This document shows positions 6,001-36,866 of a stretch of 44,997 bases of DNA, piece by piece. The first letter of the stretch is position 1. Each line of letters opens with the position of its first letter. Position numbers and translations under genes: made by a program. Source of the stretch: Clostridia bacterium (GTDB taxonomy: Bacteria > Bacillota > Clostridia > Christensenellales > Borkfalkiaceae); contig JAFTTJ010000002.1 in NCBI GenBank assembly GCA_017466825.1, positions 1 through 44,997 on the forward strand. The letters are read 5' to 3'. The notes beneath the pieces were generated by a model. That model searched no databases. It was not told where the DNA came from and saw only the letters and a program-made list of their open reading frames with translations.

Positions 6001-6761
6001 TCGACACCGCAAAGGTAATGGAAGACGCAGGCGCTCAAGCCGAAATTTTTGTTGTAAACAACTTGACTCAAGACGGCATAAAGCGTAGCGTTGAAGAGTT
6101 TTCTAAAAAACTTGCTTCTTCACAAATGGTGTTCGTTCCCGGCGGTTTTTCAGGCGGTGACGAGCCCGACGGTTCGGGTAAGTTTATAATGGCGTTTTTC
6201 AGAAACGCGCAGGTAAAGGAAGAAGTTGAAAAACTCTTAGGTCAAAGAGACGGTCTTATGGCGGGTATTTGTAACGGTTTCCAAGCCCTTGTTAAACTCG
6301 GCTTAGTGCCTTTTGGCAAAATCGTCGATGCCGACGAAAACAACCCAACCTTAACTTACAATACTATCGCGCGCCACCAATCTAAACTCGTTAGGGTAAG
6401 GGTTGCTTCAAATAAGTCCCCGTGGCTTTCGGCAACTAACGTAGGCGATGTGTTCACCGTTCCCATTTCTCACGGCGAAGGAAGATTTTTAGCCGACGAA
6501 AAAACTGTAAGGCTTCTCGCTGCAAACGGTCAAATTGCAACTCAATACGTCGATTTTGACGGCGACGCAACTTCGGACGTTCGCTTTAACCCCAACGATT
6601 CAGTTTACGCAATCGAAGGTATAACTTCACCCGACGGAAGAGTTTTCGGTAAAATGGGACATAGCGAAAGAATAGGCAGAAACCTTTATAAAAACGTAAT
6701 TGGCGAGTATGATATGAAGATGTTTGAGAGTGCCGTCAACTACTTCAAAAAAGGTTTATAA
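3069..6761 (+). CDS. purL: FGAM synthase, large single-chain PurL
   Basis: Converts FGAR plus glutamine and ATP to FGAM in purine synthesis. The 1230-residue chain fuses the synthetase (two AIRS-type halves) to a C-terminal glutaminase, unlike the split PurSQL of Bacillus. Visible motifs are THNHPTEIEPFGGAATCIGG in the first half, GGKDSMSG in the second, the nucleophile loop GICNGFQAL and the catalytic SHGEGRF near the C-terminus. Length suits the shorter large-PurL clade found in Clostridia. The start overlaps the purD stop by one base. The last codons (FKKGL-stop) lie inside the left outer arm of a hairpin element at 6747, so the repeat abuts or overlaps the gene end. Confidence 0.96.
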   Translation: MVYRIYVEKKSGLAHEADSLLNELTNLVGIKNLKSVRILNRYDAENITEELFNESISTVFSEPQLDVATATPEYNGDFVFAVEYLPGQFDQRADSAAQCIQIASCGERPIIRSAKVYVLGGDLTNQDIEQIKKYVINPVEAREASLEKPQTLVAVYDIPESVATLDGFIHLDETGLTDFIKSNGLAMDLDDIKFCQKYFISENRNPTITEIKMIDTYWSDHCRHTTFLTTIDSVKFEDELLQKTYGEYVKAREELGRTKPVNLMDVATLAVRYLKKHGKLDKLDESEEINACTVKIEVEADGKKEPWLLLFKNETHNHPTEIEPFGGAATCIGGAIRDPLSGRSYVYAAMRVTGAANPLKPIDQTIKGKLPQRKIVQTAAAGYSSYGNQIGLATGMVNEVYHDGYAAKRMEIGAVIAAAPQANVRRERPEGGDIVILLGGRTGRDGCGGATGSSKKHTVASLETCGAEVQKGNAPEERKLQRLFRNEEASRLIKRCNDFGAGGVSVAVGELADGLDINLNAVPKKYDGLDGTELAISESQERMAVVVEAKDVERFMELALTENLEATVVATVTEEPRLKMRWNGKTIVDISREFLNSNGAEKHIDVEVAKTRPYGKELPEDFANGYKALASDLNVCSTRGLSERFDSTIGAGTVLMPFGGKNQLTPIQAMVHKISMEKKHTDDCSYMSWGYNPFISEKSPYHGAYLAVVESVSKLVATGAEFKDVYLTFQEYFEKLGKDSRRWGKPLSALLGAFKAQMDYGIGSIGGKDSMSGSFEDLDVPPTLVSFAVTTGKTDDVISNDFKKAGSKVYLLKPDYDQNALPVPASVISNYTALTKLMRQGKVLSCWTPTYGGVAEGVLKMCMGNGLGFEYESNLSNENVFGYAYGSFIIESNEELDLPVIGRVVPSPYITKANQSLALADLCKAYEGKLESVFPVKENGGKKLENFSFTAKERVAPAISVAKPKVIIPVFPGTNCEFDTAKVMEDAGAQAEIFVVNNLTQDGIKRSVEEFSKKLASSQMVFVPGGFSGGDEPDGSGKFIMAFFRNAQVKEEVEKLLGQRDGLMAGICNGFQALVKLGLVPFGKIVDADENNPTLTYNTIARHQSKLVRVRVASNKSPWLSATNVGDVFTVPISHGEGRFLADEKTVRLLAANGQIATQYVDFDGDATSDVRFNPNDSVYAIEGITSPDGRVFGKMGHSERIGRNLYKNVIGEYDMKMFESAVNYFKKGL

Positions 6762-7124
6762 ACGGCGGTATGCGTCGTTACTGTAAGTGTTTGCCGACTG
6801 GGATGACCAAAAAGGTCTATCCCATCCGTCAACCCCTTACGAGCCTAGCCTACCTTGTTTCTAAACCTTTTTACAAGAGACTTATAAATGGCGGTATGCG
6901 TCGTTACTGTAAGTGTTTGCCGACTGGGATGACCAAAAAGGTCTATCCCATCCGTCAACCCCTTACGAGCCTAGCCTACCTTGTTTCTAAACCTTTTTAC
7001 AAAAGACTAATAAACGGCGGTATGCGTCGTTACTGTAAGTGTTTGCCGACTGGGATGACCAAAAAGGTCTATCCCATCCGTCAACCCCTTACGAGCCTAG
7101 CCTACCTTGTTTCTAAACCTTTTT
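6747..7124 (+). repeat. Three tandem copies of the hairpin element (126-bp period)
   Basis: Three nearly identical 126-bp units run 6747-6872, 6873-6998 and 6999-7124 (equivalent ATG triplets at 6770, 6896 and 7022). In the first unit AAAAAAGGTTTATAAAC (6747-6763, including the purL stop) pairs with GTTTCTAAACCTTTTT (6857-6872). The core is GGGAT-GACC-AAAAA-GGTC-tATCCC. Because 126 is a multiple of three, a 134-codon reading frame stays open across the array; it has no RBS and repeats a 42-residue unit, so I do not call it a gene. A solo left-end fragment follows to about 7165. Confidence 0.9.
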
Positions 7125-7179
7125 ACAAAAGACTTATAAACGGCGCAATACTGCGTTTCTGCTTTAAAGGCTAAAAATC

Positions 7180-7207
7180 TTGACAAATTAAAAAATCACA
7201 ATATAAT
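7180..7207 (+). promoter_or_regulatory. fhs promoter
   Basis: Consensus -35 TTGACA (7180-7185), 16-nt spacer, -10 TATAAT (7202-7207). The predicted 5' leader is only about 20 nt, so there is no room for a riboswitch. The promoter separates fhs from the purL transcript and lies just after the tandem hairpin array. Confidence 0.85.
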
Positions 7208-7234
7208 ATATATAACTATTTAGGAGAAAATAAA

Positions 7235-8908
7235 ATGGCATATTTAAGCGATATTGAAATTGCTCAGGCAACCCCCATGAAACCTATTACCGAAATTGCA
7301 AAAGTAGTAGGTATTCACGACGATTACCTTGAACCGTACGGTAAATATAAAGCTAAAATCGACTACAACGTACTCGGTACTACTGGTAGAAAAAACGGTA
7401 AACTCGTACTCGTAACCGCAATCACCCCCACCCCTGCGGGTGAAGGTAAAACCACTACTACCATAGGTCTTGCCGACGGTCTTCGCAAAATTGGCAAAAA
7501 CTCGGTTGTAGCCCTTCGCGAGCCTTCGCTTGGTCCTGTTTTCGGCGTCAAAGGTGGCGCTGCGGGCGGGGGTTACGCTCAAGTCGTTCCTATGGAAGAC
7601 ATTAACCTTCATTTCACGGGCGACTTCCACGCAATCGGCGCGGCAAACAATCTTTTGGCTGCAATGCTCGACAACCATATTTACCAAGGTAACAAATTAA
7701 ATATCGACCCCAGAAGAATCACTTGGAGAAGATGCGTTGATATGAACGACAGACAACTTCGTTTCGTAACCGACGGTCTTGGCGGTAGAGTAAACGGCGT
7801 ACCCAGAGAAGACGGTTACGACATTACCGTTGCTTCTGAAATTATGGCTGTTTTCTGTCTTGCAAGCGACATAAACGACTTAAAGGCAAGACTTTCAAGA
7901 ATAGTAGTTGGTTACACTTACGACGAAAAGCCCGTTACCGCAGGCGAACTCAACGCTGTCGGTGCAATGGCGGCTCTTTTAAAGGACGCTTTAAAGCCCA
8001 ATCTTGTACAGACTTTAGAAGGCACGCCCGCTTTCGTACACGGCGGACCGTTCGCAAATATCGCTCACGGATGTAACTCCGTTATCGCAACCAAAATGGC
8101 AATGGAATTCGGCGACTATGCTATAACCGAAGCAGGCTTCGGCGCAGACCTTGGCGCGGAAAAATTCCTTGATATCAAGTGCAGATACGCAGGTCTTACC
8201 CCCGACGCGGTAGTTATGGTAGCAACCGTAAGGGCGCTTAAAATGCACGGCGGTATGCTTAAAACCGAACTTGGCAATGAAAATTTAGAAGCCCTTGAAA
8301 AGGGTATTCCCAACCTTCTTCGCCACGTTTCCAACATTAAAAACGTATATAAACTTCCTTGCGTAGTTGCAGTAAACAGATTCCCCACCGATACGGATGC
8401 GGAAATTAATCTCGTTATTGAAAAATGTAAAACTCTCGGCGTAAACGTAGTGCTTTCTACTGTTTGGGCTGACGGTGGCGAAGGCGGTAAGGCAATGGCT
8501 GAAGCCGTAGTTAAACTTTGCGAAGAAAAAGGCGACTTTACTTTCAGTTACGAACTTGACGAAACTATCGAAAAGAAGATTGAAAACGTCGTTACCAAAG
8601 TATACGGCGGAGCAGGCGTAAACTTTACGCCCGTTGCAAAAAAGCAAATCGCAACCTTAAAAGAACTCGGTTACGATAAAATCCCCGTATGTATGGCAAA
8701 AACTCAATACAGTTTTTCAGATGATCCTACTAAAGTAGGCGCGCCCAAAGATTTCGTCGTTACCGTAAGAAACGTAAAAGTATCTGCAGGCGCAGGCTTT
8801 ATAGTCGTACTCACGGGCGACATTATGACAATGCCCGGTCTTCCCAAAGTTCCCGCCGCTGAAAAAATCGACGTCGACGCTAGCGGAAAGATTTCAGGAT
8901 TATTCTAA
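7235..8908 (+). CDS. fhs: Formate-tetrahydrofolate ligase
   Basis: ATP-dependent ligase that makes 10-formyl-THF from formate and THF. It is cytosolic, typical of anaerobes and acetogen-related clostridia, and supplies formyl groups for two purine steps. At 557 residues it is full length. The P-loop region [14 protein letters not shown] is at about residues 65-78, and [20 protein letters not shown] follows as the family signature. The ATG follows TAGGAGA at good spacing and a consensus promoter. Its position between purL and guaB fits purine supply. No disruption seen. Confidence 0.97.
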
Positions 8909-8917
8909 AATAAATCG

Positions 8918-8955
8918 GACAAGCACCTTATTTCAAGGCGCTTGTCTGTTTGCAT
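8918..8955 (+). terminator. Hairpin between fhs and guaB
   Basis: GACAAGCACCTT (8918-8929) pairs with AAGGCGCTTGTC (8935-8946) with one A/C mismatch, followed by a moderately T-rich stretch. It is probably a weak terminator or attenuator. No separate guaB promoter is obvious in the 77-nt gap, so partial readthrough is likely. Confidence 0.55.
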
Positions 8956-8985
8956 ATTTTTGATTATTATAAAGGAGAAAGAAAA

Positions 8986-10491
8986 ATGGCAAAATTCATT
9001 AACGAACCTTCTCATACTTTTAACGAATACTTACTCATCCCCGGCTATTCTTCAGCGGAATGTATTCCTGCAAACGTAAGCTTAAAAACTCCGCTCGTAA
9101 AGTTTAAAAAGGGCGAAAAATCTGCGATTGAAATGAATATTCCTATGATTTCGGCTATAATGCAGTCCGTTTCGGGCGAAAGGCTTGCGGTTGCGCTTGC
9201 TACTGAAGGCGGTGTTTCGTTTATCTACGGTTCGCAGTCTATTGAAGACCAAGCGGCTATGGTTAAAAGAGCAAAGAGCCACAAAGCGGGCTTTGTAAGG
9301 AGCGATTCTAACGTTCGCCCCGACACCACTTTAGCCGAAGTCATTGCTTTAAAGGAAAAAACCGGTCACTCTACTATCGCCGTAACCGAAGACGGTACTG
9401 CCGACGGTAAACTCGTAGGCGTTGTAACTAGCCGTGATTATAGGGTTAGCCGTATGGCTCTCGATACCCCGGTAAAGGAATTTATGACGCCCTATAATAA
9501 ACTCGTTACCGCCCCCGAAGGCACGACCTTAAAGGAAGCAAACGATATCATTTGGGATCATAAATTAAACTCTCTTCCCATCGTTACCGCAGACCAAAAA
9601 CTTTGCTATTTTGTATTTAGAAAAGACTACGATTCGCACAAGCAAAACCCCAACGAACTTTTGGACTCGTCTAAGCGTTACGTCGTCGGCGCAGGTATCA
9701 ATACTAGAGATTACGCAGAGAGAGTTCCCGCTTTGATTGAAGCGGGCGTAGACGTAGTTTGTATCGACTCGTCCGAAGGTTTTTCGGAATGGCAAAAGCG
9801 CACTATCGAATGGATAAGACAAAATTACGGCGACACCGTAAAAGTCGGCGCAGGTAACGTCGTTGACGCCGCAGGCTTTAGATTTTTAGCCGACTGCGGA
9901 GCAGACTTTATCAAAGTTGGTATCGGTGGCGGTTCGATTTGTATCACTCGTGAAACGAAGGGTATAGGTCGTGGTCAAGCAACCGCGCTTATCGAAGTTT
10001 GCGCAGAGCGTGATAGATATTTTGAAGAAACGGGCGTGTATATTCCCGTCGGCTCGGACGGCGGTATCGTTCACGATCACCACATAACCCTTGCGCTTGC
10101 AATGGGCGCGGATTTCGTTATGCTCGGCAGATATTTCGCAAGATTTGACGAAAGCCCGACCAACAAGGTTTCTATCGGCGGAACTTATTATAAAGAATAT
10201 TGGGGCGAAGGCTCGGCAAGGGCAAGAAACTGGCAAAGATACGACCTTGGCGGAGATAAGAAATTGTCTTTTGAAGAAGGCGTTGATTCCTACGTTCCTT
10301 ACGCAGGCTCGCTTAAAGATAACGTTGCAATGACGCTTGCAAAAGTTCGTTCAACCATGTGCAACTGCGGAGCGCTCTCTATTCCCGAGCTTCAAGAAAA
10401 AGCCGTTCTCACTCTCGTTTCGGCAACTAGCATTGTTGAAGGCGGAGCGCACGACGTAATTCAAAAAGACAAAACGAATACTATAAAGTAA
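8986..10491 (+). CDS. guaB: IMP dehydrogenase (Tritrichomonas-like type)
   Basis: Oxidises IMP to XMP with NAD, the committed step to GMP. I place the start at 8986 (MAKFINEP), which has AAAGGAGAAAG just upstream; an in-frame ATG at 8950 lacks an RBS. The 501-residue chain has a TIM barrel split by a CBS pair (about 95-215). The catalytic cysteine is C319 in [10 protein letters not shown], and the flap carries NWQRYDLGG with R418-Y419. These positions coincide with the Cys319 and Arg418-Tyr419 reported for the T. foetus enzyme, and the flap reads [16 protein letters not shown] rather than the commoner bacterial YRGMGSLGAM. Function is secure; the subtype is an inference from motifs. Confidence 0.96.
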
Positions 10492-10540
10492 GGCTATAAG
10501 TCGATTATTTAGATATTTTTTAATTCGGAGGACAATATAT

Positions 10541-11542
10541 ATGCAAACTAACAAACGTCCTGACGATATGCAAAGGATTACGAGCAAAGCGCTCGCCGAC
10601 GCATTTATCGCTGAACAAGTAGAAGAAATTAGAAAACAAGTAGGGGACAAAAAAGTCCTTCTTGCGCTCTCGGGCGGGGTAGACTCTTCCGTCGTTGCGG
10701 CGCTACTTATCAAAGCCATTGGCAAACAACTCATAAGCGTACACGTAAACCACGGACTTATGCGTAAGGGCGAATCGGAAAACGTTATTGAAGTTTTCCG
10801 CAATCAACTCGACGCAAATCTCGTTTACGTAGACGCAACCGATAGGTTTTTAAATCTTTTGGCAGGCGTTTCCGATCCGGAAAGCAAGCGTAAAATTATC
10901 GGTAAAGAATTTATCGAAGTTTTTGCTGACGAAGCCCGCAAACTCGAAGGTGTACAATTCCTTGCGCAAGGCACGATTTATCCTGATATTTTAGAAAGTA
11001 TTAAGCAAGCCGAAGGCAAAAAGGCGGTTAAGTCCCACCACAACGTTGGCGGTCTTCCTGAAGACCTTCAATTTGAACTCGTAGAGCCTTTAAAACTTCT
11101 TTTTAAAGACGAAGTAAGAGTAGTTGGCGAAGCGCTCGGTCTTCCCCACGCTATGGTTTACCGTCAACCCTTCCCAGGCCCCGGTCTTGGCGTAAGATGT
11201 TTAGGCGCTATCACTCGTGATAGACTTCACGCTTTAAGAGAAGCCGACGCAATACTTCGCGACGAATTCGACAAATGCGGTCTTGCCCAAAAAGTATGGC
11301 AATATTTCGTCGTTATTCCCGATATAAAGAGCGTTGGCGTAAAGGACGACAGCCGTTATGAAGGTTGGCCTGCAATTCTTCGCGCCGTAAACACTAAAGA
11401 CGCTATGAGCGCTACTATTGAAGAAATTCCTTACGCAGTTCTTCACAAAATCACAAGCCGTATCGTTACCGAAGTCGAAGGCATAAACAGAGTTCTCTAT
11501 GATATAACGCCAAAGCCTACGGGGACTATTGAATGGGAATAA
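10541..11542 (+). CDS. guaA: GMP synthase ATP-pyrophosphatase subunit (stand-alone)
   Basis: Amidates XMP to GMP. The 333-residue protein has only the PP-loop ATPase (SGGVDSS at 44-50) and the C-terminal dimerisation domain (RQPFPGPGLGVRCLGAITRDRL, closing with KPTGTIEWE). The N-terminal class I glutaminase domain of ordinary bacterial GuaA (about 510 residues) is absent, and the gene upstream is guaB, so it was not split by a frameshift here. The start has a strong RBS (CGGAGGAC). This resembles the two-subunit arrangement best known in archaea (GuaAb). The partner glutaminase must be encoded elsewhere, or free ammonia is used. A hairpin element begins 3 nt after the stop. Confidence 0.93.
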   Translation: MQTNKRPDDMQRITSKALADAFIAEQVEEIRKQVGDKKVLLALSGGVDSSVVAALLIKAIGKQLISVHVNHGLMRKGESENVIEVFRNQLDANLVYVDATDRFLNLLAGVSDPESKRKIIGKEFIEVFADEARKLEGVQFLAQGTIYPDILESIKQAEGKKAVKSHHNVGGLPEDLQFELVEPLKLLFKDEVRVVGEALGLPHAMVYRQPFPGPGLGVRCLGAITRDRLHALREADAILRDEFDKCGLAQKVWQYFVVIPDIKSVGVKDDSRYEGWPAILRAVNTKDAMSATIEEIPYAVLHKITSRIVTEVEGINRVLYDITPKPTGTIEWE

Positions 11543-11544
11543 TT

Positions 11545-11671
11545 TTTAAAGGAGTATAAACTGCGCAATACTGCGTTACTGTTTTATAGCCAAGACTTCG
11601 GTGACCACAAAGGTCTACCAAACCCTTGTCAATAAAACGAGCCTTGTCTTGCTTGTTTCTACTCCTTTAAA
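11545..11671 (+). repeat. Hairpin element copy C
   Basis: The left outer arm TTTAAAGGAGTATAAAC (11545-11561) pairs with GTTTCTACTCCTTTAAA (11655-11671) except for one mismatch that other copies also show. Next come the conserved block ACTGCGTTACTG, an inner arm TTTTAT...AAG...GGTGACC (tip at 11600-11619), and the right block CGAGCCTTG. It begins three bases after the guaA stop. The outer stem sequence differs from other copies but stays complementary. Confidence 0.85.
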
Positions 11672-11847
11672 TACTTTAAAGTTGTACAAACTACGCAATA
11701 CTGCGTTTCTACCACTTTAAAACAAATTTTAAAAGCCCCTTTGTGTAAAAGGGGGGCACTTTTAAGTGGCTATGGAGATTGCAAATTCTTGCCGTGCCTT
11801 ATATGCTTCGTAAAAGAGCGTTATTGCAACGACTTAATAAAAAATTT
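11672..11847. repeat. Repeat fragments between guaA and membrane-protein cluster
   Basis: No gene. Two solo left-end fragments of the hairpin family are visible (ACGCAATACTGCGTTTCTA at about 11694-11712, and TTATATGCTTCG...GCGTTATTG at about 11801-11828). Between them is a hairpin GCCCCTTT-gtgt-AAAAGGGGGGC (11735-11757) enclosed by CCACTTTAAAA/TTTTAAGTGG. The CCCCTTTGTGTAAA motif recurs at 36920. Confidence 0.6.
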
Positions 11848-11993: not shown

Positions 11994-12431
11994 ATGGGAT
12001 TATATATAATTTCACTTGTTTTTTTAATCGGGCTAATTATTTTATTGATAAATTATTTTCACGCTAAAAACAAAAATAAAAAAGAACCGGGCTCTTATTC
12101 TGAAAAAGGTATGAGAGCAAGGTTTATCGGTATAATAGTGCTTGCGGTTTTGACCGTTCTTCCGTTAACACCTATTTTTGGGGCGCTATTCCTTTTTTCA
12201 GGCGTTTTGATGTATATAATACCTTTCGTTTGCTTTATCGGTCTAATTATTATGCTGATAAGTTATTTTCACGCAAAAAAGAAAAACAAGGAAGAACCCG
12301 ACACTTATTCAAAAGAAAGTATGAGAATAAGGTTAATTATCATAATAATTCTTGCAATATTTATTGTGCTTCCTATAATAGGTCTTTTCGGATTTATACT
12401 ACTTATGAATTTAGGTATTTTTGGGATGTAA
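11994..12431 (+). CDS. Four-helix membrane protein with internal duplication
   Basis: Unrecognised 145-residue integral membrane protein. Two halves repeat the same plan: a helix ending LIILLINYFHAK or LIIMLISYFHAK, a basic/acidic loop KNKKEP.SYSEKGMRAR or KNKEEPDTYSKESMRIR, and a second helix IIVLAVLTVLPL or IIILAIFIVLPI. This gives four predicted membrane segments and implies an in-gene duplication. The RBS is GGGGGGAT. It is followed after 5 nt by a 47-residue membrane ORF and then a PstS-like protein, so the three may form one membrane-associated unit. No function can be assigned. Confidence 0.75.
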   Translation: MGLYIISLVFLIGLIILLINYFHAKNKNKKEPGSYSEKGMRARFIGIIVLAVLTVLPLTPIFGALFLFSGVLMYIIPFVCFIGLIIMLISYFHAKKKNKEEPDTYSKESMRIRLIIIIILAIFIVLPIIGLFGFILLMNLGIFGM

Positions 12432-12580: not shown

Positions 12581-13567
12581 ATGAAACTCACAAAGCAAAT
12601 TATTACGATTTTGATAGTCGTAGCAGTATTTGCATTGATAAATTTAGGAATGTATTTTTTGCTCACGCATAGGCTAGCGAATAACTTTAGCGGAGCAACG
12701 CAAGCGCAGATGATAGACGTAAAAAGTTATCTTCCGCACGAAGAAGACTCTGACTTGCCTAAGATAGAAACGTCTTTTAAATTAACGGAAAACCTTCCCG
12801 TACTAGACGGTGCTGCTGCCTTAGTTCCCGTATACGCCGCAGTTATCGACAACGTTTATCCTAAAGGTTGCGTAAAATACGACGGCGGAACTTTTTCCGA
12901 CGACAACTATTACGGCGAAAATTTTGCCGAAGATAGCGTTATGCAATATAAAAATACCGTGCGTGGATATAAAGCGATAGTTGACGGTGTTACGGATATT
13001 TTGTTTTGCGCAGGCCCGTCGCAAGAGCAAAAGCAATACGCTATTGACAAAGGCGTTGAACTTATTTACGTACCTATAGGTTTAGAAGCTTTCGTGTTTT
13101 TTGTAAACGAGAAAAACCCCGTCGACGATTTAACGGTAGAGCAAGTAAAAAAAATATACGCTTGCGAGTATACTAATTGGGCGGAAGTAGGCGGTAGTAA
13201 TCGCGTTATAAACCCGATAACGAGATTAAAAGGTAGTGGAAGTCAAACTATGTTTGAAGCCTTTATGGGCGACAATAAAATCGGAGTAAAGCATCCGTTA
13301 GCAATAATTGGCGGTTCAATCGGGTTTTCATTTAGGTTTTATATGGATGGAATCGTTGAAAACGACGCCGTAAAAACCCTAGCTTTAAACGGCGTTTATC
13401 CAAGCGCGGAAAATATCCGAAATCGTTCTTATCCAATAGTTACACAATTTTACGCTATATATCGCGCGGATAATGATAACAGTAATATTCCCGTTCTTAT
13501 CGACTGGCTTTTGTCTACAGAAGGACAAAATTTAATTGAGTCTACGGGATACGTCAAAATCAATTAA
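12581..13567 (+). CDS. PstS-like substrate-binding protein, membrane-anchored
   Basis: 328 residues with an N-terminal hydrophobic segment (about 6-29) lacking a lipobox cysteine, so probably anchored or secreted. The body matches the phosphate-type periplasmic binding fold: DGAAALVPVYAA near residue 68 resembles the DGSTAL.P loop of PstS, followed by ILFCAGPS, PIGLEAFVFFVN, and KKIYACEYTNWAEVGG with RLKGSGSQTMFEAFMG. These are typical of the PBP-like family that includes PstS. No ABC transporter permease or ATPase lies nearby. The partners are small membrane proteins, so it may be a sensor or a protein that works with a distant transporter. The ligand is not certain. Confidence 0.8.
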   Translation: MKLTKQIITILIVVAVFALINLGMYFLLTHRLANNFSGATQAQMIDVKSYLPHEEDSDLPKIETSFKLTENLPVLDGAAALVPVYAAVIDNVYPKGCVKYDGGTFSDDNYYGENFAEDSVMQYKNTVRGYKAIVDGVTDILFCAGPSQEQKQYAIDKGVELIYVPIGLEAFVFFVNEKNPVDDLTVEQVKKIYACEYTNWAEVGGSNRVINPITRLKGSGSQTMFEAFMGDNKIGVKHPLAIIGGSIGFSFRFYMDGIVENDAVKTLALNGVYPSAENIRNRSYPIVTQFYAIYRADNDNSNIPVLIDWLLSTEGQNLIESTGYVKIN

Positions 13568-13690
13568 AAGATTATATACTTCGCAGTACTGGTCTTTTTA
13601 CGGTTTTTTGCAATTCCGATTACCAGCAAGGTAATTCCCTTGCTAAAATCTCGTGAAAATTCCGTCTTGCTTGCATCTAATCCGTTTAAA
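13565..13690 (+). repeat. Hairpin element copy D (diverged)
   Basis: The left outer arm AAAAGATTATATAC pairs with GCATCTAATCCGTTT on the right. The left block CTTCGCAGTACTG, the tip ATTACC-agcaa-GGTAAT and the right block TCTTGCTTGCATCTAA are recognisable. This copy has drifted most from the family consensus, notably replacing GACC/GGTC by TACC/GGTA, yet keeps pairing. It overlaps the stop codon of the PstS-like gene. Confidence 0.75.
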
Positions 13691-13734
13691 TTTAATCAGT
13701 CATACGCTGTGACAGAGCCATAAAAATTAAAATT

Positions 13735-18616: not shown

Positions 18617-18646
18617 TTGACAAAATAGTGCAATATATTGTATAAT
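18617..18646 (+). promoter_or_regulatory. Promoter of glycine-rich lipoprotein gene
   Basis: TTGACA (18617-18622), 18-nt spacer, TATAAT (18641-18646). Divergent from the CNNM promoter with about 90 bp between -35 boxes. Confidence 0.8.
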
Positions 18647-18688
18647 AATAAATGTATAATAAAGCGAACCTTATTTATTGGGGGCAAC

Positions 18689-20611
18689 ATGAAAAATTTG
18701 AAAAGACTACTTATAATTTGTTTTATAATTGCCGTTTCGGCGTTTGCCGTTTCGTGCGCGCCGAGAGAGATTTTTAAGGGCAACGACGGCATGGGTAATT
18801 TTGGTCAAGTAGACAAATACGAAACGGGCGAGCCCGTCGTAATTTACTTAAACGACCAAACGGAAACGACGATTTCGTCCGTCGCTTCAATAAAGCCTAT
18901 GTTAGGTTATTTTGACGAAAAGGTTGAAATAGTTTCGCCCGCTATCGAAGATTCTTCGGTTGCCGTTATCGACGGCGAAGTTATTCGCCCCGTCGGCGTT
19001 GGTAAAACCAATTTTACTTGGCAGTTTCAAGACGTTTTAATCACTCAGGAAATAACCGTGCATAGCGGTGCGAAAAACGTTACCGACCTTTCGCTTTTAG
19101 GCTCGGAAGACGGTAACTTTTACGTCGGCAAAACCTATTCGTTAAGTTCGATAAATTCGTCTAACTGTCCCGTTTCGGAACTTGAAATCGAAGTTGCTAC
19201 CCCCTATGAAAGTGTGGATAGCGACAGTTTGGTGAGCGTGGACGAAAACGGGAATATCACCATCGTCGGTTTGGGTGAGTTTGACGTTTGGGTACACTCT
19301 AAAACGAATAAAGACGACGTTGGCGCAAAGGTTAGAGTGTCGCCTGCTTTTGCAACCCTTGAAATAGATTCTGCAGTAGAAAGTTATTTTAGTAGCGCAA
19401 TCGAAAACGACGGCGTGCTTACCGCCGAAGAATTGGCAACCGTTGAAAAACTTTCCTTTGACGGTTTCGTCAATTTACAAACGGCAAGCGTAGATAGCGT
19501 TTTCCCCGCTTTAAAAACGATAGAAGTAAGGCTTGGTTCAATCATTTACAATGATCGATTCGAAATTCTCGACGGAAAATACGATTGGAAGATTATCGGA
19601 ACGGAAAATACGGATTATTCGCTTTATTTTTCGACTAACGACTGTCAAGATATTAAGGTTGAGTTTGAAAACGTAATCGCTCGAAGCGTAGATCTTTCAG
19701 CGGCGCAAAGCGCAGTCGTAACCCTTGCGGGAACGAACTCGTTTACAGGAAATTCTTCAATTGACGGAGTAGGTTCGTTTGCGATTAAAGCAAACGCTTT
19801 AAATTTAAAATTAAAAGGCCATTCTAATTCTACCTTTACGGGTGGAAACAGCGGTGGTGGAGCAGTTGGCGGAATAGGCGTTTACGTGCTAGACGAGTTG
19901 TCGGTGCAAGGTGAAACCCAAAGCGCTAATTTCAACGTTTACGGCGGTAAAGGCGGCGACGCTTTAGATGGCGGTTATACGGGCGGTAAAGGCGGTACTG
20001 CAATTTATTGTTCTAATAAGTTTAGCGTTTCGGGTAGCGTAAACGCTAATATAGTCGGCGGTAAAGGCGGAAAAGGCGGTCTTGGCGTAACGGGGGACAC
20101 AGGTCCTTCGGGCGCGAAAGGCAACAATGAAAGCCAGGGCAAAGATCCGACTTACGGATATGACGGTCGCCCCGGCGGTAAAGGATATCAAGGCGGGAAA
20201 GGCGGTACTGGCGGTACTGGTGGAGATTGTATCGTTTCCGTATTTTACGAAGTTCCCTTCGGCGACGTAACTTTAAACTTAATCACGGGTGACGGCGGCG
20301 ACGGTGGAAAAGGCGGTCGCGGTGGAAAAGGCGGTCGCGGTGGTAACGGTGGCGACGACGATAATTGGAGTTTCGTAGGCATAGGCGATATGGCCGGCGG
20401 TTCGGGCGGATCGGGCGGTCCCGGTGGGGACGGCGGTTATGGCGGAGACGGCGGCGCTGCAGGTACTCCCTTTAATTATACCGACGTAGGCGACGCTTTT
20501 GACTATATTACCTGTGTAATTCAAAGTGGTTCGAGCGGATTAAGCGGAGCGACGGGCGACGTAGGCTATCAAGGCGACAACGGTAGCCACGGCGACGGCG
20601 GTAAAATGTAA
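18689..20611 (+). CDS. Glycine-rich surface lipoprotein with Big-like domains
   Basis: 640 residues from ATG 18689, which follows GGGGG; an upstream in-frame ATG at 18638 overlaps the -10 box. The signal peptide ends in the lipobox AVSC with C23, so it is a secreted lipoprotein. Residues about 70-250 contain two Big_2-like segments (VIDGEVIRPVGVGKTNFTW; VSVDENGNITIVGLGEFDV). From about 415 to the end it is dominated by GGxGGx repeats (GGKGGKGG, GGRGGKGGRGGNGG, GGSGGSGGPGGDGG), interrupted by a few non-repetitive stretches. Such GGx repeats resemble polyglycine-II helix bundles of phage tip adhesins and snow-flea antifreeze protein. It may be an adhesin or surface-coat protein; the function is not known. 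Confidence 0.8.
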   Translation: MKNLKRLLIICFIIAVSAFAVSCAPREIFKGNDGMGNFGQVDKYETGEPVVIYLNDQTETTISSVASIKPMLGYFDEKVEIVSPAIEDSSVAVIDGEVIRPVGVGKTNFTWQFQDVLITQEITVHSGAKNVTDLSLLGSEDGNFYVGKTYSLSSINSSNCPVSELEIEVATPYESVDSDSLVSVDENGNITIVGLGEFDVWVHSKTNKDDVGAKVRVSPAFATLEIDSAVESYFSSAIENDGVLTAEELATVEKLSFDGFVNLQTASVDSVFPALKTIEVRLGSIIYNDRFEILDGKYDWKIIGTENTDYSLYFSTNDCQDIKVEFENVIARSVDLSAAQSAVVTLAGTNSFTGNSSIDGVGSFAIKANALNLKLKGHSNSTFTGGNSGGGAVGGIGVYVLDELSVQGETQSANFNVYGGKGGDALDGGYTGGKGGTAIYCSNKFSVSGSVNANIVGGKGGKGGLGVTGDTGPSGAKGNNESQGKDPTYGYDGRPGGKGYQGGKGGTGGTGGDCIVSVFYEVPFGDVTLNLITGDGGDGGKGGRGGKGGRGGNGGDDDNWSFVGIGDMAGGSGGSGGPGGDGGYGGDGGAAGTPFNYTDVGDAFDYITCVIQSGSSGLSGATGDVGYQGDNGSHGDGGKM

Positions 20612-30319: not shown

Positions 30320-31525
30320 ATGGCAAAATCCAAATTCGAGAGAAGTAAGCCACACGTAAACATTGGTACCATTGGTCACGTTGACCATGGTAAGACTACC
30401 TTAACTGCTGCAATCACTATGGTTATGGCTGCTAAGGGTGGTGCTGAAGCTATGAGATACGATCAAATCGACAAAGCACCCGAAGAAAAAGCAAGAGGTA
30501 TTACGATTAATACCGCTCACGTTGAGTATCAAACCGAAACTAGACACTACGCACACGTTGACTGCCCCGGACACGCTGACTACGTTAAGAACATGATTAC
30601 CGGTGCTGCTCAAATGGACGGCGCAATCTTAGTTGTTGCTGCTACCGACGGTCCCATGCCGCAAACCAGAGAACACATCCTTCTTGCTCGTCAAGTAGGC
30701 GTTCCTTATATCGTTGTATTCCTTAACAAGACTGACCTTGTTGACGACGAAGAACTCCTTGAACTCGTTGAAATGGAAGTTCGTGGTCTTTTGGACGAAT
30801 ACGGATTCCCCGGCGACGATACTCCTATCATCAAAGGTTCTGCATTCAAGGCATTAGAAGCTGCTGCTTCTGGTAACGCTGACGACCCCGCTTGCCAACC
30901 CATTCTCGACCTTATGGCAGCAGTTGACTCTTACATCCCCACTCCTGAAAGAGACGACGCTAAGCCCTTCCTTCTTCCTGTAGAAGACGTATTCACCATT
31001 TCTGGTCGTGGTACCGTTGCTACTGGTAGAGTAGAAAGAGGTGTTGGTCACGTTGGTGATCCCGTTGAAATCGTTGGTCTTCAAGACAAGCCCACCACTT
31101 CAGTTATTACCGGTCTTGAAATGTTCCGTAAACTTCTTGACGAAGCACAAGCTGGTGACAACGTAGGTGCTCTTCTTCGTGGTATCGACAGAAACAGCAT
31201 TAAGCGTGGTCAAGTTATCACCAAGCCTGGTAGCGTAAAAGCTCACACCGAATTCAGCGGTCAAGTTTACGTTCTTACCAAGGAAGAAGGTGGACGTCAC
31301 ACTCCTTTCTTCAACAACTATCGTCCTCAATTCTATTTCAGAACTACCGACGTTACCGGAACCATCAAACTTCCTGAAGGCGTAGAAATGGTTATGCCTG
31401 GTGACCACATCACCATCGACGTAACTCTTATCACTCCTATCGCTTGTGAAGAAGGTCTTCGTTTCGCTATCCGTGAAGGTGGCAGAACCGTAGGTTCAGG
31501 CGTTGTTGCTTCTATTAAGGCTTAA
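30320..31525 (+). CDS. tuf: Elongation factor Tu
   Basis: The GTPase that delivers aminoacyl-tRNA to the ribosome, 401 residues. G motifs are [23 protein letters not shown] and NKTD, with the C-terminal domain ending [25 protein letters not shown]. It ends in a strong terminator. EF-Tu is the target of P1 Doc, so it is the predicted target of the Doc toxin encoded at 15298 in the same window (inference). Confidence 0.99.
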
Positions 31526-31542
31526 TCTTAAATTTAAAAAAC

Positions 31543-31576
31543 AAAAATGCTAAGGCAAAAAGCCTTAGCATTTTTT
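31543..31576 (+). terminator. tuf terminator
   Basis: AAAATGCTAAGGC, loop AAAAA, GCCTTAGCATTTTTT. A perfect 10-bp stem followed by a T-run. Confidence 0.95.
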
Positions 31577-31692
31577 ACTTTATACACTGCGTTATGCTTC
31601 GTTTACTGCCAACATTTTAAGATTAGTATGACCAAAGAGGTCTATCCTATCCTTAAAATGTTGTCGAGCCTTGCCTAACTTGTGTCTAAAGT
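31577..31692 (+). repeat. Hairpin element copy E
   Basis: ACTTTATACAC (31577-31587) pairs with GTGTCTAAAGT (31682-31692) with the family mismatch. The left block is GCTTCGTTTACTG. The inner arm CAACATTTTAAG pairs with CTTAAAATGTTG, and the tip is ATGACC-AAAGA-GGTCTAT. The right block is CGAGCCTTG. The inner-stem sequence differs entirely from other copies yet pairs over 12 bp, the clearest covariation in the set. It sits between two terminators. Confidence 0.88.
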
Positions 31693-31711
31693 TTTTTAAA
31701 AACAAAAAATG

Positions 31712-31741: not shown

Positions 31742-31749
31742 TTTGTCTT

Positions 31750-31827
31750 GTCATTGCGAGCCTACTTTAGTAGGCGTGGTAATCTAAATAGCGTTTATGA
31801 GATTCCTTCGCTTACGCTCGGAATGAC
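31750..31827. repeat. MITE-like repeat with GTCATTnCGAGC ends
   Basis: A 78-bp segment bounded by GTCATTGCGAGC and the inverted GCTCGGAATGAC, with internal CCTACTTTAGTAGG and AGATT parts. Its ends match a repeat type frequently seen in bacterial intergenic regions (recall). No transposase is present in the window. Confidence 0.65.
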
Positions 31828-31989
31828 AGTTAAAAAGGCGAGATTTTATCCTTTCTTTGTGTGACCGCCCAAGTACCTAAAAAACAAAAAAGCAACGTCA
31901 CGTTGATTGAAGTCAAGACGGAAGGGTTGTAAAGAATAGGTGGCAGTAAAATAAAAAAGCGGTTGCGTTTATTTTCGCAACCGTTTTCT
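31828..31989. other. Non-coding remainder, tuf to XRE gene
   Basis: No gene. It holds the - strand terminator for the XRE gene at 31953-31984: CGGTTGCG and CGCAACCGC around AAAATAAA, followed on that strand by TTTTTTATTTT. Confidence 0.65.
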
Positions 31990-32747: not shown

Positions 32748-32750
32748 ACA

Positions 32751-32777
32751 AAAAGGCGAGCGGATGCTCGCCTTTTT
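32751..32777 (+). terminator. Terminator after SHOCT gene
   Basis: GGCGAGC (32755-32761), loop GGAT, GCTCGCC (32766-32772), flanked by an A-run and TTTTT. It could work in both directions. Confidence 0.9.
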
Positions 32778-32834
32778 ATTTTAGAAAACAGTATTTTTAT
32801 TTGGATTGGTTACGTCACAACTCGTGACTGTGCC

Positions 32835-33716
32835 TTAAGTATTAGGTGGGGTAGGGTTTTGCTCGTAAAACTCAACTAAACTTTTAAATTCGTCAAAGTA
32901 TTTATCTATATCGTTTTCGGGTTTTTCCTGTATCCAGTCGGGCTTGTCGTAGCCGTAAATTGCATACCAAAAAGTATCGTCCCAGCGCTGATGTAAAAAG
33001 TAAAAGTCCGCGTTTAAATTTTCAACTACGGGCAATCTAGATTTAAGCCAAGCAATTTGCTTAAAGGAAAAATAGTTTCTTGCAAGGCGTAAAAACTTAA
33101 GGTTTACTAGGCTTGCAAAAACTTGTAAATCCGTCGTTTTAGCCCCGTTATACGCCGTAAAAAACTCTAAATGGGTTAAATTTACAAGACTTTCAAGTGC
33201 GGAAATATCGTCGATTATAGGAGCGTCGGTCTTGTCTTCGTAAGCAAGGTGTTCGCCCGAAATAATCAATTTTTGAATATCCGAGCCGAAAAGCCCGTCA
33301 ATATTTTTCAAACTCTTTGCGTAGTAAAGGGTAATTTCTTTTAGCAAGGGGTTTTTGCTTACGTCCCAAATTTTTTCCGTCTTTTCAGAGTGATGTAAGC
33401 TCACTTCAAGCAAATTGGGGAAGTTTTCTAAAAAAGTTAGGTCGCCCGTCGCCGAAAAACTTTCAATTCCAATAAGTTTTTCCTTTACGCCGAGCGCAAT
33501 TTTTTTAAGGTCGTCTTCTTCAATCTTTATAAAAGAAAGGTCTACTACTTGTTCGGTTTGCAAAACTGCAATCAAATCCTCAATCGTTTCGGCTTCGCCC
33601 TTTTTTTTGCCAAAGGCGAGCATACTTATTCCGTCGTTAGCGGTTGAAATATTGTAAACGAACTGCCCCTTATATTGGCGCAAGGGGGTTTTTACGCTTT
33701 TATTATAATAAAACAT
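32835..33716 (-). CDS. Leucine-rich-repeat-like protein
   Basis: 293 residues, soluble, no signal peptide. Several 20-25-residue repeats of LRR character run from about 85 to 225 (LTFLENFPNLLEVSLHHS, LLKEITLYYAKSLKNIDGL, LESLVNLTHLEFFTAYN, FASLVNLKFLRLARNYF). The C-terminus is aromatic and acidic (WDDTFWYAIYGYDKPDW). Its RBS AAGGAG overlaps the stop of the upstream GNAT gene (5 nt apart), so they form an operon. Probably a protein-interaction scaffold; partner unknown. Confidence 0.72.
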   Translation of the reverse strand: MFYYNKSVKTPLRQYKGQFVYNISTANDGISMLAFGKKKGEAETIEDLIAVLQTEQVVDLSFIKIEEDDLKKIALGVKEKLIGIESFSATGDLTFLENFPNLLEVSLHHSEKTEKIWDVSKNPLLKEITLYYAKSLKNIDGLFGSDIQKLIISGEHLAYEDKTDAPIIDDISALESLVNLTHLEFFTAYNGAKTTDLQVFASLVNLKFLRLARNYFSFKQIAWLKSRLPVVENLNADFYFLHQRWDDTFWYAIYGYDKPDWIQEKPENDIDKYFDEFKSLVEFYEQNPTPPNT

Positions 33717-33721
33717 ACTAT

Positions 33722-34207
33722 TTACTCCTTAATTTTTTGAAAAGCAAGCCTTTCTTCGCCGTTTTCAAGATAGATTATTCCGCAATAGTAAAATCCGTTT
33801 CTTTTTAACAGTTTTTGCATAGGGATATTATCCCTGTGGGTGTCAATCCTTAAATTGGGGTAGAGTTTAAAGCACTCGTTTAAGCAAAAATCTGCAATAC
33901 CCTTGCCGTGATATTTTACTGCGATTCGGTGTATAAAAGCGTAGGGCTCGTCGCTAAGCCACGCCCCGTCGATATAGTTATATGTAGGCTCGACTTGGTT
34001 TGCAAACGCAAAAACGGCTACTATTTCGCCGTCGTCTTCGCAAACGTAACCAATACCGCTATCAACGTCGATTTTAGCGTCGACTTGGTTTGGGTAGTTG
34101 CCCGCCCATTGGTTAGGGTTGCCGTTTTTTATCATAAAAACTTTTGCTTGCGCGTAAATATTCTCAATTTCGGGCAAGTCTAAAAGGGTAGTTTTTCTTA
34201 TTATCAT
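33722..34207 (-). CDS. GNAT-family N-acetyltransferase
   Basis: 161 residues with the GNAT fold: N-terminal MIIRKTTLLDLPEI, IGYVCEDDGEIVAVFAFAN (beta strands 2-4), AFIHRIAVKYHGKGIADFCLNEC (motif A, acetyl-CoA pyrophosphate loop with the Q/RxxGxG/A pattern relaxed to KYHGKG), and RIDTHRDNIPMQKLLKRNGFYYCG (motif B). Substrate unknown. First gene of an operon with the LRR protein. Confidence 0.88.
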   Translation of the reverse strand: MIIRKTTLLDLPEIENIYAQAKVFMIKNGNPNQWAGNYPNQVDAKIDVDSGIGYVCEDDGEIVAVFAFANQVEPTYNYIDGAWLSDEPYAFIHRIAVKYHGKGIADFCLNECFKLYPNLRIDTHRDNIPMQKLLKRNGFYYCGIIYLENGEERLAFQKIKE

Positions 34208-34254
34208 AATATAATAGGTTGGTTTTTACAACTTAAAACCCAAAAAGGTAACGA

Positions 34255-34284
34255 CAAAAAGGCGGAACAACAGTTCCGCCTTCT
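34255..34284 (-). terminator. rpmB terminator
   Basis: On the - strand, GGCGGAAC-tgtt-GTTCCGCC followed by TTTTTGTCG. A perfect 8-bp stem. Confidence 0.85.
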
Positions 34285-34316
34285 TAAATGCTAATTGTTT
34301 GTGTCAAACTGAAGAC

Positions 34317-34505
34317 TTACGCTCTTTCAACTTTATTGCTCTTAAGGCAACGAGCGCAAACATATTCAGAAGAAACTACGCCATCGTTTACAACTCTGAC
34401 TTTCTGAACGTTCGCACTGTACAAACGGGGGGTCTTACGGTTACTGTGGCTAACTTTATTGCCGGATAACTTTCCTTTTCCGCAAACGCTGCAAACTCTC
34501 GACAT
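34317..34505 (-). CDS. rpmB: 50S ribosomal protein L28, zinc-binding form
   Basis: 62 residues from ATG 34505, which has GGAGGTGC upstream; the longer reading frame lacks an RBS. C5 and C8 (CSVC) plus C50 and C53 (CARC) make the four-cysteine zinc ribbon of the C+ paralogue type. SHSNRKTPRLY is the family core. It is monocistronic, with its own promoter and terminator, opposite to the asp23-fakA pair. Confidence 0.97.
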   Translation of the reverse strand: MSRVCSVCGKGKLSGNKVSHSNRKTPRLYSANVQKVRVVNDGVVSSEYVCARCLKSNKVERA

Positions 34506-34545
34506 AATGCACCTCCAAAGAAAATAGTAAAATTTAAGCATAGAT

Positions 34546-34574
34546 AATATACCACAATTTTAATTTAATTGCAA
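34546..34574 (-). promoter_or_regulatory. rpmB promoter
   Basis: - strand TTGCAA (34569-34574), 17-nt spacer, TATATT (34546-34551). Confidence 0.7.
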
Positions 34575-34643
34575 CAAAATTAAGCCTGTTTATAAAAAAA
34601 ACACACAAAAAATAAGTTATCGGCAAAAAATAATAAAAAACCC

Positions 34644-34672
34644 TTGTAAAAGTTTACAAAATATAGTATAAT
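34644..34672 (+). promoter_or_regulatory. asp23-fakA promoter
   Basis: TTGTAA (34644-34649), 17-nt spacer, TATAAT (34667-34672), 20 nt before the ATG. Confidence 0.75.
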
Positions 34673-34692
34673 AGTTAAGAAAGGAGAACACT

Positions 34693-35043
34693 ATGCCAGT
34701 AACGACTTCTAATATTTACGGTAAAATTTCAATATCTGACGAAGCTATCGCAAAGGTTGCAGCGCACGCAGCCTTGGAGTGTTATGGCGTTGTTGAGATG
34801 GTACCTAGGAAACTTTCCGACAGTATTTCGCAACTTTTCAAGCGCGATACGGGCGGTAAAGGCGTAAACGTAGTTACCACCGGCGATAGAATTTTTATCG
34901 ACGTTTTCGTAATCATTAAATTCGGCGTTTCAATTGCCGCGGTTGCCGAATCTTTAAAGAGCGCGGTCAAATACAAAGTCGAGCAGTTTACGGGTATGAT
35001 AGTTAGCGAAGTAAACGTAAACATTATCGGCGTAAAACTTTAA
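34693..35043 (+). CDS. Asp23/Gls24 family envelope stress protein
   Basis: 116 residues of the Asp23 (YloU/Gls24) family. The pattern NIYGKISISDEAIAKVAAHAALECYGVVEM followed by DRIFIDVFVIIKFGVSIAAVAESLKSAVKYKVEQFTG is the whole-family signature. Members associate with the membrane through AmaP in staphylococci and are linked to cell-envelope stress. The yloU-yloV order with fakA is conserved in Firmicutes and seen here (63-nt gap). Confidence 0.93.
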   Translation: MPVTTSNIYGKISISDEAIAKVAAHAALECYGVVEMVPRKLSDSISQLFKRDTGGKGVNVVTTGDRIFIDVFVIIKFGVSIAAVAESLKSAVKYKVEQFTGMIVSEVNVNIIGVKL

Positions 35044-35106
35044 TTATTCAAGGGACTATCGGGGGATAAGTCCCTATTTCCACATATAATTCGGAGGAAT
35101 GTTTTA

Positions 35107-36738
35107 ATGCAGAAAAATATAAATGGCGCAACTTTTGCGAAAATGGTAAAAGGAGCGGCTAAACTGCTTGAAGTAAACAGAGAACTGATAGATAGTTTAA
35201 ACGTTTTCCCCGTTCCCGACGGTGACACGGGTACTAATATGAGTCTTACGATGCAATCTGCCATTAAAGAACTCAACGCTTGCAAGTCAAATAATTTACA
35301 CGACTTGGCTGATTCCGTTTCAAAGGGCGCTCTTCGTGGCGCGCGCGGTAACTCAGGCGTTATCACTTCACAAATTTTTAGGGGTTTATGCTCCATCTTA
35401 AAAGATAAAAACGATTTTGACACTAAGACCTTTGCTAAGGCGTTAAAAAATGCTACCGACGTTGCTTACAGCGCCGTTTCAAAGCCTAAGGAAGGTACTA
35501 TTTTAACCGTTTGCCGTATGATTTCCGAGCACGCGGTTGCCGTTTGCGGTAAAGTAAAGGATATGGAATCCTTTATGCAAGAAATTATTAAAAAAGGTAA
35601 AGAAGCCGTTGACCTTACTCCCACTTTATTGCCCGTTTTAAAGAAAGCAGGCGTTGTTGACTCGGGCGGTATGGGACTTTTGACTATCTATGAAGGTATG
35701 TATAAAGGTCTTATCGGCGAAGAAATCGAAGGCGCTACCATCGATCAACCCGAAGTAAAGGTTGATTCTAGCATGGAACACGCCGACATTATGAATCTCG
35801 GCACGATAGAATTCGGCTACTGTACCGAATTTTTCATCATAAATCTCAAAAAAAGGACGACTCTTGCGGATATCGACAGACTTAGAGAATACCTTATGGG
35901 TATTGGCGATAGTGTTATCTGTATTGGCGACCTTGAATTCGTTAAAGTTCACGTTCATACCAACAACCCCGGTCAAGCAATAACCAAAGCGCTTCAACTT
36001 GGCGAAGTTGACAAGGTTAAAATTGAAAACATGCTTGAACAAAACCGTGAACTCATTAAAAAGTACGAAGCCGAAAAGAAAGAACTCGGTATGCTTTCTA
36101 TTTGTTCGGGTAGCGGTATTGCCGCAATATTTAAAGATATCGGCGTAGATAGAGTTATTGAAGGCGGTCAAACTATGAACCCATCCGCTCAAGACATTGC
36201 AGACGCCGTTGCGAGAATAAACGCAGATAATATCTTCATTTTCCCCAACAATAAAAACATTATTCTTGCGGCAGAGCAGTCTAAATCGCTTATTGAAAAC
36301 AAGCGCATTCACGTAGTGCCTACCAAAAATATTCCCCAAGGTATTTCGGCGGCAATAGCATTTAACCCCGACGATTCTGCGGAAGAAAATTTGAGCAACA
36401 TGATTCACGCAATAGATAACGTTGCCGCAGGTCAAGTTACTTACGCCGTAAGAACTACTAAAGTAGACGGATTTAGTTTAACCCAAGGCGATATTATCGC
36501 TCTTGATAACAAAAAAATACTTGCAAAGGGTAAGGATATTGCAAAAGTTACTGCTGACTTGATTGCAAAACTTCATCACCCCGTTCATAGCCTTATCAAT
36601 ATTTATTACGGCGCTGACGTTTCCGAAGAAGAAGCTCTCAACCTTCAAGAAACCTTGCAGGAAAAATATCCTGACCTTGACGTAGAAGTATTCCAAGGCG
36701 GACAGCCGATATATTATTATATTGTTTCTCTTGAATAA
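35107..36738 (+). CDS. fakA: Fatty acid kinase subunit FakA (YloV, DhaL domain)
   Basis: 543 residues. The N-terminal DhaL/DAK2 ATP-binding domain has FPVPDGDTGTNM at 34-45 (the acidic Mg-ATP cluster) and LRGARGNSGVITSQIFRG. The centre and C-terminal domain correspond to the FakA scaffold that binds FakB. FakA phosphorylates FakB-bound fatty acids for incorporation into membrane lipids. No fakB (DegV family) is in the window. RBS CGGAGG. A hairpin element begins right at its stop. Confidence 0.94.
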   Translation: MQKNINGATFAKMVKGAAKLLEVNRELIDSLNVFPVPDGDTGTNMSLTMQSAIKELNACKSNNLHDLADSVSKGALRGARGNSGVITSQIFRGLCSILKDKNDFDTKTFAKALKNATDVAYSAVSKPKEGTILTVCRMISEHAVAVCGKVKDMESFMQEIIKKGKEAVDLTPTLLPVLKKAGVVDSGGMGLLTIYEGMYKGLIGEEIEGATIDQPEVKVDSSMEHADIMNLGTIEFGYCTEFFIINLKKRTTLADIDRLREYLMGIGDSVICIGDLEFVKVHVHTNNPGQAITKALQLGEVDKVKIENMLEQNRELIKKYEAEKKELGMLSICSGSGIAAIFKDIGVDRVIEGGQTMNPSAQDIADAVARINADNIFIFPNNKNIILAAEQSKSLIENKRIHVVPTKNIPQGISAAIAFNPDDSAEENLSNMIHAIDNVAAGQVTYAVRTTKVDGFSLTQGDIIALDNKKILAKGKDIAKVTADLIAKLHHPVHSLINIYYGADVSEEEALNLQETLQEKYPDLDVEVFQGGQPIYYYIVSLE

Positions 36739-36866
36739 TTTTAAAGGCTTATATACTTCGTTAGCCTGCGTTACTGTATCGCCTTCAAAACCTTGGTGAC
36801 CAACAAGGTCAACCAAGTCTTTTCAGGCTCACGAGCCTTGGCTAACTCGCATCTAAGCCTTTAAAA
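36739..36866 (+). repeat. Hairpin element copy F (best preserved)
   Basis: TTTTAAAGGCTTATATAC (36739-36756) pairs with GCATCTAAGCCTTTAAAA (36849-36866). The second stem segment GTTAGCC pairs with GGCTAAC, and the third CCTTGG-TGACC pairs with GGTCAACCAAG across tip AACAA. Unpaired conserved blocks are TGCGTTACTG on the left and ACGAGCC on the right. It starts one base after the fakA stop. A tip-only fragment (GGGTGACC-AACAA-GGTCTATC) lies at 36878-36898. Confidence 0.9.

Follow-up and report, generated by a model that had tools for sequence, protein, structure and literature searches.

The window, the whole stretch of 44,997 nt analyzed here (positions 1 to 44,997 of contig JAFTTJ010000002.1, assembly GCA_017466825.1, from a Clostridia bacterium of the family Borkfalkiaceae), harbored eight copies of an imperfect hairpin element of ~127–130 nt: one partial, six full-length, and one diverged. 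The home genome comprised 1.65 Mb in 39 contigs and was 83.6% complete. Copies were recognized with two models, R1 (built from 38 home-genome copies) and the broader R2 (from 50 copies spanning many families), and were arranged among open reading frames (ORFs) as follows:

1..107, + strand: copy A, with its 5′ part lost at the contig start; matched by R1 over 1–79 and by R2 over 1–105
to about 141, + strand: partial unit behind copy A
6746..6875, + strand: copy B1, at the end of the purL-like ORF 3069–6761; R1 match
6872..7001, + strand: copy B2, in tandem with B1; R1 match
6998..7127, + strand: copy B3, in tandem with B2; R1 match
about 7125..7165, + strand: remnant, left-arm part alone; found in the repeat listing and by eye
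11544..11673, + strand: copy C, with the stop of ORF 10541–11542 2 nt upstream; R1 match
11674..11723, + strand: shortened copy behind C; R2 match
13562..13692, + strand: diverged copy D, at the stop of the PBP-like ORF 12581–13567; R1 match
31570..31700, + strand: copy E, directly behind an intrinsic-terminator-like hairpin (about 31541–31576); R1 match
36739..36867, + strand: copy F, with the stop of the FakA-like ORF 35107–36738 1 nt upstream; R1 match
about 36870..36905, + strand: remnant with tip motif GACCAACAAGGTCTATC; found with the tip pattern

B1 to B3 were three tandem units of 126 nt each spanning 6746–7127, and the stop codon TAA of the purL-like ORF (Pfam GATase_5/AIRS_C) fell within the left arm of B1. 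The ORF before copy C encoded a GMP synthase C-terminal domain, ORF 30320–31525 with an EF-Tu domain preceded the terminator-like hairpin upstream of copy E, and a recG-like ORF lay downstream of copy F.

On the + strand, five representative copies folded 3.3 to 6.6 standard deviations below dinucleotide shuffles; on the − strand, four of the five did so by 5.0 to 7.2. Forty-one units were extracted from home-genome loci, three of 94 nt were dropped, and the remaining 38 were aligned (alignment A2) under a stem structure of 47 pairs written by hand, with 500 shuffles as control. Paired cells made up 86.7% in these 38 copies, 68.8% in the shuffles, and 40–44% when partners were slid by one column; 34 of the 47 pairs displayed two-sided change, and two-sided changes occupied 339 cells versus six for one-sided wobbles. 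The paired fraction, the two-sided counts, and the covariation score were each matched by 0/500 shuffles, and the number of further pair types was reached by 56/500. Covariation persisted (i) across genera, where 45 of the 47 stem pairs varied on both sides among 43 distinct rows (one reverse-strand reading and one truncated unit included) and the further pair types were reached by 4/500 shuffles, and (ii) order-wide, where 22 stem pairs in 49 distinct rows had 93.1% paired cells and 19 of the 22 showed two-sided change. The outer arms differed among copies yet stayed paired, and terminal sequence was not conserved. Since the stems varied freely yet remained complementary, something must rely on the fold itself, and selection acting on a fold was strongly supported.

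The fold also carried fixed unpaired features (A2 columns): an outer-stem mismatch T14·C118 in 35/38 home rows, the mismatches A53·C82 in 38/38 and C54·T81 in 30/38, a loop beyond C18–G114, a GTT..CTG/CGAG loop with one bulged G, and a single conserved T bulge near the tip. The hairpin base was the conserved core and the apex was variable: the tip differed by lineage (GACC-N5-GGTC, CACGTAC..GTACGC, or CACTTAG..CTAAGC) and was almost missing in two copies, L299 and L317. A first-pass annotation of the window, made from its letters, had described at least six loci with variable but complementary stems, one recurring outer-stem mismatch, a shared architecture, and selection on a fold; all six loci indeed carried that architecture, the recurring mismatch was real and had two further fixed mismatches beside it, and the observation as a whole proved larger than it had stated. 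Two corrections apply: many units were truncated or chimeric, combining the left arm of one type with the right arm of another, and copy D (tip ATTACC-N5-GGTAAT) had lost the conserved right block.

Two further sequences accompanied such units. A recurring sequence GCGTCGCAAATCGGCT... with its own hairpin lay at window positions 142–180 and downstream of truncated copies in loci L005, L007, L028, L033, and L043; it stood in for the right part of many truncated copies or trailed them, in the manner of a preferred recombination partner or an array end. A mini unit GGATGCAACGTCACGTTGCTGACC... often trailed a complete copy (many loci, e.g., L005, L117, L126, L166, L175, and L184) and looks like a fixed deletion form of the element.

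In the home genome, the tip pattern GACCN5GGTCTAYC had 58 matches (reversed control, 0) and R1 had 72. R1 further matched 26/61 genomes of the closest sample, including 25 from the home family, and 73/396 genomes of the order, in 12 families and many with a single match; R2 matched 56/391 genomes of the class, including 48 from beyond the home order. The order and class searches used stricter filters and at most eight scored candidates per genome, so their copy numbers are minima. Among the matches listed, named carriers were mostly Clostridia assemblies from ruminant guts, plus one labelled Christensenella sp. UBA3770, and a few hits lay in other phyla; one model search took 67 of 80 listed loci and left out 13 (other-phyla loci and short pieces). 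Copy number ranged from 0 to >50 inside one genus; G036, for example, had 49 matches and G019, of the same genus, had none. Copies lay within a few hundred bases of the ends of home contigs C2, C5, C8, C9, C17, C21, C27, C32, and C38; arrays thus probably interrupt the assembly, with copy number counted too low. Phage carriage was sought with two blastn queries, neither of which matched, and with patterns in viral contigs: two core patterns gave no match, and two records were hit by the tip pattern, one fitting the model at the 18-nt tip alone and the other not at all. The plasmid matches listed covered query bases 2–67, which were the rRNA side of the query.

The element was anchored at gene ends. 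Among 144 first copies (those with enough flank, after tandem followers, duplicate contexts, and copies near the locus start were dropped), 110 had their left end at a same-strand stop and 12 had the mirror arrangement, where anchoring was counted for mechanically called ORFs of at least 100 codons with the stop −30 to +60 nt from the left end. Stop positions peaked at −16 (19 copies), −6 (26), and −1 to +2 (23); a minor class, comprising copy E and about a dozen others, lay behind terminator-like hairpins. All 72 home-genome matches kept one strand per contig (19 contigs, none mixed, four with a single match); on G036:C4, the strand switched where GC skew changed sign, near 140 kb, and 13/13 copies in 280 kb of G021 fit a leading-strand rule. 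As a general law, a strict leading-strand rule was rejected, with both strands found on one contig in other families (G065 locus L307; G259:C1), and because of this mixing the gene end is the firmer rule.

A different setting was found beside rRNA genes. In G553, G615, and G771, the element lay opposite the rRNA strand in six cases, with its left end 0–4 nt from the 5′ end of 23S or 5S, and in G539 the gaps to the rRNA gene were 6 and 74 nt. L317 was a counter-case, lying on the rRNA's own strand 44 nt after a 5S gene. Taken with G726, opposite-strand elements in rRNA operons were noted at L350, L354, L357, L360, L366, and L369, and that of L366 abutted or lay close to the 5′ end of the 16S gene; such elements might act in pre-rRNA processing. 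The identical copies in the large genomes G553, G615, and G771 turned out to sit in rRNA operons, and the idea that they formed an autonomous multicopy element was rejected.

Orthologous gene ends were filled in some related species and empty in others, and the types differed between species. The purL-like end carried one type in the home genome and another in G002 (the latter by visual judgment) and none within 300 nt in six other species, and one locus was cut off; with more distant homologues left out, matches were present at 3/12 examined fakA-like ends (one cut by a contig end) and 2/10 examined GMP-synthase-like ends. At the fakA end, the native terminator-like hairpin persisted downstream of the element, so this copy is probably transcribed. 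Recurrent sites in other families (names from translations) were queA, the rpsG–fusA, fusA–tuf, and rpsM–rpsK gaps, and the positions after lysS, trxB, and mnmE; NCBIfam named QueA for 9/9 upstream proteins tested.

The queA sites linked the element to its host gene. Nine queA loci had the stop at −16 (eight within the NCBIfam-tested set; the ninth, L275, has 48 codons in its locus), and their left arm was the conserved coding end (..RFFSFGDA....). The right arm paired with the coding end of its own locus at 10.1 of 12 pairs, compared with 6.5 when arms were swapped, and 0/20000 permutations were as good; this test left out L278, whose stop codon lay 7 nt upstream, and its permutations treat the species as unrelated. 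Across 85 copies, none of 300 shuffles equalled the pairing of outer positions 1–12 at their own site, and from position 0 outwards pairing was at chance; a flanking palindrome as target was accordingly rejected, because pairing ends at model position 1. The first-pass annotation had observed neither the stop-codon anchoring nor the strand rule nor the host-matching arm.

That annotation had left a folded RNA and a single-stranded DNA side by side; the fold stands, and the evidence leans to DNA. An RNA helix is expected to tolerate G·U. In well-paired positions, G·T and A·C stood at 41:41 in A4 (119 rows prior to the merging of identical ones, including two reverse-strand readings) and at 21:24 in A3; 14 tRNAs from the same loci gave 14 G·T and 3 A·C (Fisher p = 0.017 versus 41:41, a small sample). 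Among the closely related home copies, A·C exceeded G·T. The transcribed strand was + at gene ends (mRNA 3′ ends) and − beside rRNA genes; as either strand can be transcribed, a role or process at the DNA level is favored, without proof, and together the data favor, without proving, folded DNA over RNA. No element copy reached the Rfam gathering score, and a lax threshold gave only matches far below gathering scores, so membership in a known RNA family was rejected. The Rfam comparison and the model search of home and related genomes had both been proposed in the first-pass annotation, which did not recognize the element as a known class. Rfam gave no match, and the element lacked those defining features of attC, REP, and ERIC that were examined.

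Integron attC sites offered the nearest likeness. VCRs, for example, are 120-odd bp long. Sites of the attC type are imperfect hairpins of 57–141 bp that are recognized by fold and not by sequence, have unpaired features, and vary in their terminal structure; in the chromosomal integrons studied, the recombining strand lies mostly on the leading-strand template (PMC5371416). The present element resembled them in fixed unpaired bases, a variable apex, similar size, post-ORF position, one strand per contig at home, and a hairpin kept in fold rather than in sequence, as the tests above showed; unlike them, it lay at the ends of core genes such as queA, rpsG, and fakA and formed no cassette array. 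The R-box pair RYYYAAC/GTTRRRY was present in 0/38 copies of A2 and 0/110 of A4 on either strand, and single R boxes occurred in no copy of A2 and one of A4. Membership in attC/CALIN was therefore rejected (no R-box pair and no integrase; see below), and attC was kept as an analogy.

Other repeat classes were compared likewise. ERIC (IRU, RU-1) is a multicopy imperfect palindrome of 127 bp that can be fused to and extend gene 3′ ends, with terminal TA and TA target duplications (PMC2759123); unlike ERIC and other miniature inverted-repeat transposable elements (MITEs), the present element had no target duplication (TA flanks not scored separately), varied in stem and terminal inverted-repeat sequence, and was anchored at stop codons on one strand. 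In a search for an autonomous relative with shared ends, right halves separate from full copies appeared in three stretches, each within 164 nt of another copy, and the left-half pattern missed even known copies. REPs are described as high-copy extragenic palindromes that are probably mobile in trans (PMC3733652, PMC2817692) and are 20–40 bp long (PMC3733652). The present element is likewise a high-copy extragenic palindrome and differs from REPs and REPINs in its ~127–130 nt; REP/RAYT was rejected, with the Y1 transposase missing in five heavy carriers (see below). The pneumococcal BOX is also a modular stem-loop repeat with recombined modules, but its modules are sequence-conserved and are not known to follow a gene-end rule. 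Group IIC introns insert behind terminators in the direction of transcription, a likeness to copy E and the dozen or so others behind terminator-like hairpins; unlike them, the element gave no Rfam ribozyme match and was not tracked by reverse transcriptase, so a group II intron or retron partner was rejected. A literature search that did not reach most subscription papers listed no publication recognized as describing this element, and a published description may nonetheless exist.

Several other repeats were present in the window. A separate palindromic repeat TGTCATTGCGAG...GGAATGACAG lay at 31748–31829, just 3′ of copy E; sequences like it are known from many bacteria. A second repeat, CCCCTTTGTGTAAAGGGGGCTGTCACCAAAGGTGATTGGGGG, lay at 36920–36966, directly behind element remnants, and had a shorter relative behind copy C at about 11735–11758. 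In addition, there were (i) two direct copies of 179 nt, 73% alike and 210 nt apart, at 12003–12391, overlapping ORF 11994–12431; (ii) an ORF rich in short glycine-type repeats (CGGCGGTAAAGGCGG...) at 18638–20611; and (iii) a 73-nt direct repeat, 97% alike and 217 nt apart, at 43639–43949 behind a tRNA-Leu gene, with a perfect 21-nt inverted repeat at its edge.

The reading that we tentatively favor, without regarding it as settled, is a family of ~127-bp DNA hairpin repeats, attC/ERIC-like in working, spread by a putative fold-reading enzyme. The DNA would extrude, or one strand would fold when single-stranded; the putative enzyme, proposed because of the conserved unpaired bases and the analogy with attC sites (PMC5371416), would read the folded shape and cut, copy, or join the element at gene ends. 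The working principle would be that of the attC site with a different enzyme. Copies just outside coding sequences would survive, the closing stem would have to pair, so that the outer right arm would come to match the end of the host gene, either by selection or by a target-templated step, and recombination between copies would shuffle stem modules. A narrower version, which we consider doubtful, is that at each new site the outermost arm, of ~12 nt, is written anew to complement the last codons of the host gene, giving an inverted, target-derived arm on an element moved or copied as folded DNA by a putative enzyme.

A number of observations weigh against an enzyme-spread DNA hairpin. The integron integrase (TIGR02249) was over cut-off in 0/61 genomes (weak matches occurred in 54/61 genomes and in 14/14 controls); CALINs can be without integrase, so this absence alone is not decisive. 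RAYT/Y1 transposase (PF01797) was over cut-off in 19/61 genomes and in none of the heavy carriers G000, G002, G010, G021, and G031, some of which are incomplete genomes. Reverse transcriptase was found in none of G001, G002, G006, G008, G021, G031, and G036. No direct repeat was enriched across the ends of 67 isolated copies (best 4-nt diagonal mean z 1.5; single cells to z 4.4 among 784, no diagonal). The order-wide stems had 13 G·T versus 27 A·C (p = 0.04), a slight hint of folding on the − strand, and the wobble test is indirect, with a small tRNA control. That copies recur at one queA end in several species resembles long retention, which would be expected if the element were useful.

A rival reading is a cis-acting RNA at mRNA 3′ ends, whose + strand transcript would fold around or just after the stop, block 3′–5′ decay or be cut out as a small RNA, and be kept or amplified as helping expression. 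We regard this as rather unlikely. The same-strand stop anchoring, with the stop frequently lying within the outer stem (peaks at −16 and −6), the native terminator-like hairpin downstream of the element at the fakA end, the queA coding ends that keep pairing with the arm, and the extreme covariation all speak for it, but G·T was not favored over A·C on the + strand, unlike in tRNA stems, the other strand is transcribed beside rRNA genes, copy number runs from none to more than 50 in one genus, and copy E sits behind a terminator-like hairpin. A small RNA transcribed from the − strand would account for mismatches that are G/A-type on that strand, for the order-wide wobbles (27 on the − strand versus 13 on the +), and for transcription of the − strand immediately 5′ of 23S and 5S; with right flanks not conserved in sequence and both wobbles equal in A4, we hold it to be highly improbable. 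Unlikely, in our judgment, is also a passive MITE- or ERIC-like palindrome, moved long ago by some transposase and surviving where harmless, whose complementarity would come from palindrome correction at replication and from recombination between copies. It would explain the dispersed, tandem, truncated, and chimeric copies and the vast excess of two-sided changes over one-sided wobbles, and ERIC has the same 127 bp and ability to extend gene 3′ ends (PMC2759123). Yet correction should have removed the fixed mismatches and bulges, which persist; the ends show no sequence conservation, no target duplication was found, and the strict side and strand at gene ends together with the queA pairing need more than passive survival.

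The element is a widespread structural element in Clostridia without an Rfam match and with a very clean covariation signal, and it may break assemblies. It also carries a warning that covariation by itself is no proof of RNA. The filled and empty orthologous sites and the coding-constrained arms provide a natural experiment on the selection and spread of a folded DNA shape. If the arm is indeed re-made at each site, the targeting principle would be a fold plus a self-written complement at gene ends, which to our knowledge is known for neither attC, REP, nor ERIC.

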